Positions 4,798 to 35,817 of a DNA stretch of 44,779 nt are shown here, in pieces. The position numbers and the translations under genes are program-made. The notes under the pieces were generated by a model, which was given only the letters and a program-made list of their open reading frames with translations, was not told the DNA's origin and made no database searches. Each line of letters starts with the position of its first letter. Positions within the stretch are counted from its first letter, which is position 1. Origin of the DNA: Chitinophagaceae bacterium (GTDB taxonomy: Bacteria > Bacteroidota > Bacteroidia > Chitinophagales > Chitinophagaceae). The DNA lies in NCBI GenBank assembly GCA_017882265.1, contig JADGPW010000020.1, positions 1 to 44,779 on the forward strand, written 5' to 3'.

Positions 4798-4896
4798 CTA
4801 TAGAGAACCTATAGAGAACATACAGAGAATCTATAGAGAATCTGGCCAGGGTTAACTTTTGGTTTGCGTAGGGTATCCTTAGGGTCAGGTCAGGGG
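4798..4896. repeat. Array 1 of degenerate 11-bp tandem repeats
   Basis: Nine consecutive 11-bp units keep exact phase: CTATAGAGAAC, CTATAGAGAAC, ATACAGAGAAT, CTATAGAGAAT, CTGGCCAGGGT, TAACTTTTGGT, TTGCGTAGGGT, ATCCTTAGGGT, CAGGTCAGGGG. The first four are near-identical; the later ones drift in sequence but mostly keep a GGGT end in register. No open frame explains it (11 is not a multiple of 3). It is followed by TTATGCATC. See also 5084-5182 and 34295-34489. Confidence 0.8.
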
Positions 4897-5083
4897 TTAT
4901 GCATCTCATAAACAATAGTAAACCAGGCTTTAACCTTACGCAAGCCAATTGGCAGGCAATGCATTGGTTCTTTTAAATCAGGGCCATGAATTCTCACCTT
5001 GAAATCAGTCAGCAGCTTAAACTTAAAGCAGTCCAAAATGGATTTCCGGGTTCACTGGAATAAAACGTGGCTCAAACCGGTAC
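4897..5083. other. Spacer between the two 11-bp arrays
   Basis: No gene is visible. The stretch opens with TTATGCATC and contains small palindromes (GCCAATTGGC near 4949, CAATGCATTG near 4958) but no promoter or repeat that I can define. Confidence 0.4.
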
Positions 5084-5182
5084 CTACCCGAGCCCTACCT
5101 GAGCTCATACCTCTACGCTACCTCTTCGCTATTTAGCGTAGAGGTAGCGTAGGGGTAGCGTAGGGGTAGCGCAGGTATGGGT
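5084..5182. repeat. Array 2 of 11-bp tandem repeats, folded as a hairpin
   Basis: Nine 11-bp units: CTACCCGAGCC, CTACCTGAGCT, CATACCTCTAC, GCTACCTCTTC, GCTATTTAGCG, TAGAGGTAGCG, TAGGGGTAGCG, TAGGGGTAGCG, CAGGTATGGGT. The left half is CTACC-type and the right half GGTAG-type, so the array is also a long inverted repeat centred near 5133 (CGCTATTTAGCG). The 23-base arms there differ at only two positions. The array ends 7 bases before the -7 box of the following gene, so it occupies the whole -33 region. Confidence 0.85.
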
Positions 5183-8689: not shown

Positions 8690-8770
8690 TAATTAGGAAT
8701 TGGGAATTAGGAATTGGGTCCTGGGTCGAGATGTTCTTAACTAATTCCAAATTCCTAATTCCCAATAACT
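8690..8770. repeat. GGAATTR word-repeat palindrome, copy A
   Basis: TAATTAGGAATTGGGAATTA on the left is answered by AATTCCTAATTCCCAATAAC on the right, around a core GGGTCCTGGGTCGAG. Copies B (11960), C (13139) and D (14917) follow the same plan. It lies directly behind tpiA. Confidence 0.75.
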
Positions 8771-8828
8771 AATATCTTAGCACATCAAACCTCCACCATA
8801 TCATATCGTCATAACAAGGAAGAATCAG

Positions 8829-11959: not shown

Positions 11960-12054
11960 AGAATTAGAGGGAATTAAGAATTTGTAATTAGGAATTTGGT
12001 CCTAGATCGAATTGGTATTAATAATTCGCCCCAATTCCCAATTCTTAATTCCCT
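11960..12054. repeat. GGAATTR word-repeat palindrome, copy B
   Basis: Left arm GAATTAAGAATTTGTAATTA and right arm CAATTCCCAATTCTTAATTC around TTTGGTCCTAGATCGAATT. The core matches copy A (TTGGGTCCTGGGTCGAG), which shows that the copies share ancestry and not just the simple word. Confidence 0.75.
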
Positions 12055-14916: not shown

Positions 14917-15022
14917 TGGAATTGGGAATTGGTAAATGGGAATTAAGGATTAGGAATTGGGAATTAGGTAGAACACCCAACAAAAGGAAAATTTCAACGT
15001 TAGGGCCCAATTCCTATTTACC
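14917..15022. repeat. GGAATTR word-repeat palindrome, copy D
   Basis: GGAATTGGGAATTGGTAAAT and GGATTAGGAATTGGGAATTA on the left, CCCAATTCCTATTTACCCAT on the right. It sits in the upstream region of pafA, so unlike copy A it is placed to affect a promoter. Confidence 0.7.
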
Positions 15023-34294: not shown

Positions 34295-34489
34295 GCTAGT
34301 TGAAGGCATTCTCACCGCTACTTATTAGCTACCTGATTGCTACTTCAAAGTATCATCATCAGGCCAGGGTCAGGCAAGAGTCAGGCAAGAGTCAGGGAAA
34401 CATCAGGATGAGGTCAGATAAACATCAGGCCTTGATCAGGAAAAGATCAGGTAGAAGTCAGGTTAAGATCAGGTCAATATCAGGCAACG
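34295..34489. repeat. Array 3 of degenerate 11-bp tandem repeats (about 18 units)
   Basis: From 34358 twelve units run in perfect 11-bp register: ATCAGGCCAGG, GTCAGGCAAGA, GTCAGGCAAGA, GTCAGGGAAAC, ATCAGGATGAG, GTCAGATAAAC, ATCAGGCCTTG, ATCAGGAAAAG, ATCAGGTAGAA, GTCAGGTTAAG, ATCAGGTCAAT, ATCAGGCAACG. The RTCAGG half is fixed and the other five bases vary freely. Before them GCTA-type words keep the same 11-bp phase at 34295, 34317, 34328 and 34339, and they match the GCTACC words of array 2. The array ends at TATGCATC (34490), the same octamer that follows array 1. A 68-residue frame across it is only a translation of the repeat. Confidence 0.9.
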
Positions 34490-34670
34490 TATGCATCGAA
34501 AATTGAAAAATGATCAATTCCGTTTTTGGGACAAAGAGCAAAATTTTTTAATCTACAATATACTAAGAAAACAACTTTATTTTGCAAAGAGTACTATCTT
34601 TTTATCAAATCAAATATTGTCAAAGAAAAGGCCTGAAAAGGTGTGTCCCATTAGGCTCGGATTTTATACC
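34490..34670. other. AT-rich spacer after array 3
   Basis: It opens with TATGCATC and is otherwise AT-rich with homopolymer runs. An 80-residue open frame on the plus strand has no family look. Nothing else is identifiable before the REP region. Confidence 0.4.
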
Positions 34671-35556
34671 GCCCTTTCAAGGCTGATGGTAGGTTTTTTT
34701 TACTTTTTCGAAGGACTGCACCCTTCGCTGTGAGATGTCGCCCTTTCAGGGCTTGAGAGTTAGCTTCTTTTGTTTTTACGAAGGGCTGCACCCTTCGCTT
34801 TGATATGTCGCCCCGTTGGGGCTTTGAGTATGATTGTGTTTTGTAACAGGCTTCAATCGAAACTCTGTTTCATTAGTTTTCAGAGTAAACAATTCCCGAT
34901 TTTTGAAGCCAAAAAGCCCTGGAAGGGCGATAATATCCAAACACCGGGTGAAGCCCGGTGAAAAAGGAAATAATTCTGAGGAAAGCCCTGAAAGGGCGTC
35001 ATTTAAAAATACATGATAGTGATACATGCAGGAGTTGCTAATACCAGATATAACGCTCATCAAAATCAACGTTATATTTTATTAAAAAGGCTCTGTATTC
35101 ATCTTCAAAAGTCATTTTAGTATGATGTTGTTTTTGGGATGAAATGTATTTTATTACAGTATCTACTTCTGCAGGATTAACTGAAAAAGCGCCGTACCCA
35201 TCCTGCCAGTAAAAATCCTTAAGGTTTTCACCTTTTGTTTTTATCCATTTGGAAGAATGGGATTTAATCTCTTCCAGGAGTTTCATCAATGCTATCTTTT
35301 TTGACAATTGACAAAGTATATGTACATGGTCATAATGACCGCCGATTTTTATTGGAGTGCATTCCAGCCTATTGCAAATACCTCCCAGGTAACTGTATAA
35401 TTCATTTTCAATTGTTTCGTTTATTAGGGGCTGACGATATTTTGTACTGAAAATAATATGGAGATAGTTTTTGACTAATGATTGTCCCATTTGGGTTGAA
35501 TTTTATTTTTTCGAAGGACTGCACCCTTCGCTTTGATATATCACCCCGGTGGGGCT
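34671..35556. mobile_element. IS200/IS605-type transposase embedded in REP hairpins
   Basis: The transposase gene (35038-35490, minus) is flanked by REP units made of a G-rich hairpin, a TA-rich linker and a second hairpin. Forward units lie at 34709-34752 (CGAAGGACTGCACCCTTCG, then GCCCTTTCAGGGC), 34779-34822 and 35512-35556. Inverted ones lie at 34916-34960 (GCCCTGGAAGGGC, CACCGGGTGAAGCCCGGTG) and 34985-34997. A degenerate piece is at 34671-34685. This matches REP-associated tyrosine transposase loci, where the enzyme mobilises or maintains the hairpins. Exact element ends cannot be set from sequence. Confidence 0.8.
35038..35490 (-). CDS. tnpA: Y1 (HUH) transposase, IS200/IS605 type, REP-associated
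   Basis: The 150-residue enzyme has the single-strand HUH architecture. The N-terminal strand NYLHIIFSTKYRQPLIN precedes the metal motif H55-V-H57 in GGHYDHVHILC and the catalytic Tyr115 in VIKYISSQKQHH. The C-terminal MTFEDEYRAFLIKYNVDFDERYIW is typical of the Bacteroidota subgroup. It nicks single-stranded DNA at hairpins, forming a 5'-phosphotyrosine. No TnpB or accessory gene is present. It looks intact and all three catalytic residues are there. The REP hairpins on both sides are the likely substrate. Confidence 0.93.
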   Translation of the reverse strand: MGQSLVKNYLHIIFSTKYRQPLINETIENELYSYLGGICNRLECTPIKIGGHYDHVHILCQLSKKIALMKLLEEIKSHSSKWIKTKGENLKDFYWQDGYGAFSVNPAEVDTVIKYISSQKQHHTKMTFEDEYRAFLIKYNVDFDERYIWY

Positions 35557-35817
35557 ATGGGCAAATTAGTTTTTGATAATATTATATCCATGTTGTCTTA
35601 GCAGGATTTTAATGTTTTTTCACCGGGAAGCAGTCTAAATGAATATTGTGCTTTGGGTAGAAAGCAGCTGTTATTTCGTTAACCCCGGTATTTAACATTT
35701 TCGTTTTTGACTTGCCCTTTTATTAACTCCTAGGTTTTTAAAGTTTGGTGCTTGATAGTAGTTATCAAACCGACAAAAACGCTGCCTTTATAACCTCTCC
35801 GGCTCGCCGTTTTTCCC
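35557..35817. other. Upstream region of lepA
   Basis: No gene is visible between REP unit 35512-35556 and the lepA promoter. It is AT-rich, and GTTTGG (35740) with a nearby ATCAAACC (35765) suggests a weak inverted repeat. Confidence 0.4.

Follow-up and report, generated by a model that had tools for sequence, protein, structure and literature searches.

Array 3 is a real row of 11-bp direct repeats in the window (the whole 44,779-nucleotide stretch of a Chitinophagaceae genome that was analysed). We give about an even chance to its being an orphan, helically phased row of putative binding sites for a DNA-binding protein, belonging to a class that lies upstream of genes of a Bacteroidota superfamily of small, basic, DUF6266-like proteins. 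Protein-binding sites are the most likely reading, and the papers searched do not describe such a class tied to this superfamily. The array is called orphan because no family gene is located directly downstream. The features of the window are presented in Table 1.

Table 1. Repeat arrays, open reading frames and dispersed repeats located in the window
Feature	Position	Strand	Description	Basis
Array 1	4798..4840	+	about four CTATAGAGAAC units, 11-bp period	repeat and periodicity scans
Array 2	5083..5175	+	11-bp units, inverted arrangement (CCTACCYGAGC / GCGTAGGGGTA)	Tandem Repeats Finder; lag-11 score 45/66
P0001	5234..5950	+	238-aa basic protein, A2 type, pI 9.8; directly downstream of array 2	
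P0002 ORF	33877..34158	-	93 aa; array 3 upstream of its start, units directed away	
Array 3, left part	34317..34354	+	GCTAC units, 11-bp period, other register	direct reading; lag-11 scan
Array 3, right part	34358..34489	+	twelve contiguous 11-bp RTCAGGNNNNN units	read directly from the sequence
REP-like repeats	~34627-34998 and 35501-35579		both sides of the Y1 transposase ORF	
IS200-type Y1 transposase ORF	35038-35490			PF01797 E 2.3e-27; NF033573 E 3.9e-21

In the right part of array 3, RTCAGG opens 11 of the 12 units and GTCAGA the other one (34413-34423). To the left, GCTAC occurs at 34317, 34328 and 34339, a GTATC variant at 34350 and GCTAG at 34295. The 11-bp period is unbroken throughout, with GCTAC at unit positions 4-8, that is, in a different register, and one lag-11 segment of the periodicity scan (34311-34512) covers the array. 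The first-pass annotation had counted about eighteen units, where 16 to 17 frames are recognisable; its twelve perfect-phase RTCAGGnnnnn units stand as twelve units in phase, eleven of them with RTCAGG, and the GCTAC units that it described as sharing this phase keep the period but not the register. Three-unit matches number seven in the window and 0 in 100 dinucleotide-preserving shuffles. The genome that holds the window (as contig C55) is a 4.02-Mb draft of 293 contigs, in which 20 three-unit RTCAGG matches fall in three arrays (C21, C55 and C215) and the reversed control pattern gave 0. This unit sequence is rare, since a three-unit match is present in just 3 of 99 relatives, own genome counted.

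The units combine a conserved core with a looser remainder. TCAG is identical in all twelve units of array 3, the sixth base deviates once, and position 1 is A or G; among these units, compared without any filter on their opening bases, 62-74% of pairs differ at positions 7, 8, 10 and 11 and 44% at position 9. For the three own-genome arrays, 31 units were chosen by an [AGT]TCAG opening, which makes positions 2-5 conserved by construction in these and all other spacer and adjacency statistics; in them A occupies position 9 in 71%, purines occupy positions 10 and 11 in 84% and 80%, and positions 7 and 8 hold no more than about 0.2 bit each. The spacers of three genomes follow a weak grammar, position 7 being nearly free (0.02-0.20 bit) and position 9 mostly A; purines prevail at positions 10-11 in the own genome and in the MAG described below, again in units chosen by [AGT]TCAG. 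Of the fixed 6-mer and free 5-mer described at first, the core is indeed near-fixed, but the five bases are constrained at positions 9, 10 and 11. To the question of whether the 5-mers are random or drawn from a limited set, the 31 own-genome units answer that they are constrained and partly free.

Slippage is an unlikely origin of array 3, because its core hardly varies, most spacer positions do, and across the own-genome arrays a unit resembles its neighbours no more than it resembles distant units. Of the 31 own-genome units 29 are distinct, and the similarity of adjacent units (0.379; non-adjacent, 0.370) equals the column-shuffle expectation (0.381), so that simple recent expansion of one sequence is not seen. 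That array 3 is a simple satellite, produced by slippage from one sequence, is highly improbable in our judgement: slippage by itself would not preserve a core while the spacer drifts. In its favour are the many near-identical tandem copies seen by eye outside Bacteroidota among the matches listed, the identity of two adjacent units of array 3, and adjacent spacers slightly more alike than shuffled ones in the MAG (0.548 vs 0.525, sd 0.015) and in Terrimonas (0.581 vs 0.520, sd 0.019). Recent tandem copying fails to explain array 3, but it may contribute to other arrays. Something maintains the core, most simply selection. Spaced recognition sites rather than plain slippage, as the first-pass annotation had proposed, are supported by the conserved core, the variable spacer and the adjacency values, and further by the recurrence of the same array class upstream of one gene superfamily; the templated series that it offered as another option found no support in any analysis.

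A scan of a genome collection for four consecutive units returned at least 120 stretches and, among the matches listed, degenerate arrays like array 3 were recognised by eye in the MAG 'Bacteroidota bin6(0d)' (JAUZOA), in Terrimonas and in Dyadobacter. Three-unit matches number 103 in the MAG, spread over at least 23 contigs, and 14 in Terrimonas, with controls of 0 in both; Terrimonas ginsenosidimutans belongs to the same family as the window's genome. From the MAG 22 arrays were extracted, leaving out the one on C185, and from Terrimonas seven. A common layout is presented by 21 of the 22 MAG arrays (L239 deviates): CATANAGNAGN units, usually an RTCTC-type unit, then RTCAGG units, followed in most copies by GTCTC and ATCACG units, and a leader with a TTTCAATTTACAAAA-type stretch and a ATGGCAAA-like start. 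Array 1 of the window resembles, by eye, the CATANAGNAGN units at the left of these arrays. The similarity among the MAG copies stops within the first codons in most, and an intact 263-aa gene is present in one of the 22. Arrays without an intact family gene are accordingly frequent elsewhere, being 21 of those 22.

The 11-bp period is also common in the genome of the window. Over 330 kb, the periodicity scan found 14 segments at lag 11, and 0, 1 and 0 at lags 10, 12 and 13. Contigs sampled regardless of arrays (247 kb) hold seven lag-11 segments, of which two precede superfamily genes (L166 and L171), one is a simple CAGT-rich repeat and the rest are near other genes. Extrapolated from this 247-kb sample, the genome would carry about a hundred such arrays.

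The genes linked to the arrays belong to three related groups. A1 is a basic protein family without a name, and the own-genome ortholog of the 263-aa MAG protein finds relatives in 11 of 394 genomes sampled from the bacterial family (12 genes at an E cut-off of 1e-6); with the MAG paralog L247, the A1 alignment comprises 13 genes from 11 genomes. The A1 gene of Terrimonas ginsenosidimutans adjoins an array of its own. A periodic array is located within 600 bp upstream of all 13 genes, with lag 11 or 22 as the top lag in 12 of them and lag 10 in L254. By eye, the units vary mostly on a GTC...AAG theme (GTCTCGTAAAG, GTCTCTATAAG, GTCAGTAGAAG and RTCAGGNNAAN), and the genes flanking the 11 A1 loci examined vary from locus to locus. 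P0001 represents the second group, A2, and together with array 2, which is the same class of upstream array, gives an in-window example of the gene-array arrangement. In pairwise comparisons (hhalign, pairwise E-values), A2 is weakly similar to A1 (E 3.5e-6, probability 87.6), and A3, which is DUF6266, matches A2 over 87 N-terminal columns (E 1.9e-10, probability 96.9) and A1 over 73 (E 5.9e-6, probability 85.3). The A1 and A2 proteins are basic in 24 of 24 cases (pI 9.2-10.7).

Searches with these proteins were otherwise negative. Pfam gave nothing convincing for A1 (best E 0.045) or, transposases included, for the linked proteins; no convincing NCBIfam match was obtained for P0001, P0002, P0003 or the own A1 protein; and PHROGs gave weak matches only (best E 0.014; 0.018 and 0.12). 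Solved structures showed no match to A1 or A2, and viral contigs contained nothing related to P0001 or the L097 protein. A distant-similarity search of phage and plasmid collections found no match to array 3 itself.

Upstream arrays are also present at genes of the Pfam family DUF6266 (PF19781), as on contig C90, where the RTCAGG units upstream of such a gene (E 4.5e-35) are directed away from it. At a threshold of lag-11 score >=36/66, arrays were found upstream of 16 of the 35 DUF6266 rows scored, compared with 3 of 130 genes outside the family (Fisher p 3.9e-10), a comparison in which the rows include close paralogs, not independent of each other, and the control genes come from the own genome only. 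The count of 16/35 keeps the mis-started rows L287 and L293 and the fragment L264 as misses and scores L265 as a hit, though its best stretch is T-rich; L266, L277, L279, L280, L281, L286 and L300 were left out of scoring as fragments, broken copies or contig ends. Of the upstream arrays at the three control genes that pass, the one before L173:10668 is a simple CAGT-rich repeat. No upstream array reached the threshold in the other 19 rows or in any of 11 A2 genes of other genomes, two of which have just ~175 bp upstream, and the latter count led us to reject upstream arrays as a general feature of A2 genes. The own-genome A2 relatives on C133 and C227 were left out of scoring, since their contigs end ~50 bp upstream.

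The unit sequence tracks gene subfamily more than host genome. Among 30 genes with a visible array, unit-motif similarity was 0.423 between related proteins of different genomes (136 pairs), against 0.301 and 0.309 between unrelated proteins of the same genome (7 pairs) and of different genomes (250 pairs), a difference between related and unrelated that 0 of 5000 permutations reached. Common descent of the upstream region may account for part of the motif similarity, and few pairs come from the same genome. Were one host regulator responsible, the opposite pattern would be expected, which counts against the alternative that a regulator of the OmpR/PhoB or MerR/CarH type, unrelated to the family, binds the repeats to control a neighbouring gene, for example P0002. 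Both regulator types do bind tandem 11-bp direct repeats, according to the available parts of the sources (PMC4415409, PMC9304148), and the three control genes whose upstream score reaches the threshold agree with a host operator, one of them by the CAGT-rich repeat. However, unrelated family genes of one genome differ in their units, and six of the seven extracted Terrimonas arrays have convergent genes on either side. Of 21 MAG arrays, 13 are followed by a gene in the same orientation, which in one case is the family gene. Because of these placements, the orphan arrays are not simply host-gene promoters. We regard a host operator as unlikely. P0002, which matches 0 families in Pfam and 0 in NCBIfam, is a possible target of array 3.

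The likeness of array 3 to other arrays is limited to its units, no family gene or common leader adjoining it. These units are of the A1 type, with RTCAGGNNRRR as at the MAG A1 locus, to whose array 49 bases are 87.8% identical. When the own arrays were compared for common leaders, array 3 shared none, nor any gene remnant with the A1 loci. Orphan arrays may be relics, sinks or landing pads. Array 3 could thus be a dispersed and functionless remnant of an array-and-gene unit that multiplies by duplication and whose gene then disappears, as suggested by the RTCAGG arrays of the MAG (at least 23 in this one genome), most of the gene-less copies of which retain the leader and first codons, and by the two in seven lag-11 segments that precede superfamily genes in contigs sampled regardless of arrays. 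Neutral decay, however, would not leave a core nearly unchanged beside widely different spacers, and the MAG copies show no recognisable element ends or target duplications; to a functionless relic we give a small probability. The same copies were also examined for a mobile element with defined ends, and none was recognised.

Folding of the arrays bears on whether DNA or RNA is recognised. Array 2 forms a strong hairpin (z -6.31, 0/200 shuffles) and some DUF6266 arrays terminate in an inverted unit, which would suit an array that is transcribed and whose units are recognised in RNA. Array 3, in contrast, folds no better than shuffles (z -1.45, 18/200), inverted repeats in the A1 upstream regions are at shuffle level (median 7.0 vs mean 6.9), and Rfam at gathering thresholds found nothing in the window. 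An RNA element seems quite improbable to us, and for array 3 an RNA motif was set aside on the fold, the Rfam search and the lack of an inverted-repeat excess in A1 regions. We infer that a protein binds array 3, as DNA rather than RNA, and that the array is in use now or was so recently.

Under the reading that we prefer, a row of DNA binding sites, each 11-bp unit would be one putative site with RTCAGG as its core and the remainder mostly spacer. A unit spans about one helical turn, so that consecutive sites would lie on the same side of the helix, where copies of the DNA-binding protein might bind next to each other in a cooperative row. The most likely binder would be the family protein, which would occupy the array before its own gene and also, in trans, the orphans. 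This self-recognition with action in trans is a guess that we hold tentatively and rather doubt; it remains a guess because the family proteins showed no recognisable DNA-binding fold and the C-terminal part of DUF6266 (A3 profile positions 109-205) has a weak fibronectin type III likeness (neogenin and DCC, best E 0.0012). The preferred reading draws on what the sequences show directly, namely the units with their period and core, the tie to superfamily genes and the tracking of subfamily by unit sequence; the basic A1 and A2 proteins, the absence of a clear RNA fold in array 3 and the changing neighbours of the A1 genes also favour it. Against it stand array 3 itself, which adjoins no superfamily gene or common leader and is like other arrays in its units only, and the absence of an array above the threshold at 19 of the 35 DUF6266 rows and at all 11 foreign A2 genes. 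The presence of three-unit matches in just 3 of 99 relatives, the lack of a recognised DNA-binding fold, the possible action of array 2 as an RNA hairpin and the possible share of common descent in the motif similarity also count against it.

A bolder proposal, which we consider improbable, is a self-addressing gene-array system in which each DUF6266-like protein recognises a private 11-bp unit before its own gene and the orphans serve as landing pads in trans. If true, it would form a dispersed network of perhaps about a hundred sites in the own genome, by the extrapolation above, marking or organising the chromosome or letting the unit spread. If the proteins bind their arrays, many matched protein-site pairs would become available for studying change in DNA recognition. 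A precise DNA element is now tied to an unstudied multi-copy superfamily, which includes the Pfam family DUF6266 of unknown function, and this offers a direct route to function.

Our literature search, which covered few subscription journals, found nothing on DUF6266, on 11-bp repeats in Chitinophaga or Bacteroidetes, or, among the papers listed, on elements like array 3. Within this literature the first-pass statement that no described element has such a layout holds, but operators offer close parallels in the PHO box and in CarH sites, as far as the available parts of the sources describe them. On paper, array 3 would work like PHO box, CarH or iteron sites.

Iterons are about 17-22 bp long and usually adjoin the gene of their binder, a replication gene. 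Array 3, with its 11-bp units, has no replication gene among the neighbours scanned, and the family matches none in Pfam. The likeness lies in the direct repeats and would extend to cooperative binding that depends on helical spacing, a feature of iterons; their cooperativity is lost when the repeats are separated by half a helical turn, in the available text of the source (PMC4980987). The PHO box consists, in the part available, of tandem 11-nt direct repeats with seven conserved and four less conserved positions, bound head to tail cooperatively (PMC4415409). Array 3 shares with the PHO box and the OmpR-PhoB operators the tandem direct repeats and the 11-nt period, but it has a core of about six bases plus five (positions 2-6 conserved) and not the seven plus four of that description. 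It also differs in having twelve units, another core, a unit sequence that varies with gene subfamily, and a binder that is putative only. The CarH operators, of the MerR family, are likewise tandem 11-bp direct repeats, described in the accessible part of their source as three or four units of nnnnTnnACAn (PMC9304148). The consensus of array 3, RTCAGGNNRRR, is without TnnACA, and its units are twelve against the three or four of that account. Among DUF6266 genes, 16/35 rows have the 11-bp array upstream, whereas array 3 has no adjoining DUF6266-like gene.

REP sequences are short, dispersed and intergenic, have a palindromic, hairpin-forming unit and are tied to one gene family (RAYT). Array 3 differs from them in not being palindromic (fold z as above), and the linked proteins match no Pfam transposase convincingly. 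A REP element was set aside for array 3 on the lack of a palindrome and on the place of the window's REP-like repeats, beyond 34627. CRISPR-like arrays have units much longer than 11 bp, and this candidate was set aside too, the units being far too short. The REP/IS200 locus that had been reported nearby is present, with the Y1 ORF and repeats flanking it (Table 1); the REP_Tyr_transpos match of the ORF was below the cut-off. No link between this locus and array 3 was found, and their proximity looks incidental.

Some other repeats were observed. Contigs break ~50 bp (own C133 and C227) or 175 bp (G002 C13 and C14) upstream of A2 genes, as if upstream repeats had disrupted the assembly. Some A2 genes of G002 and G006 (L152, L153, L156 and L161) have weak lag-11 repeats downstream (32-36/66), and a GTCCAC motif was seen by eye in this downstream sequence. 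The own contig C21 carries, ~420 bp from its RTCAGG array, a 184-bp array of about 15 TTG-led 11-bp units of the TTGNCTNNATA type (L149:10335-10518). In 7006 prokaryote genomes surveyed for periodic repeats, heptamers are reported to be the commonest intergenic tandem repeats; the available portion of the survey's main text contains neither '11-bp' nor '11 bp' (PMC6344855). In the 330 kb of the own genome, lag-7 segments outnumber those of lag 11 (19 vs 14), and the window has 7-bp AATT-type repeats at 8691-8773, 11970-12053 and 14918-14965.
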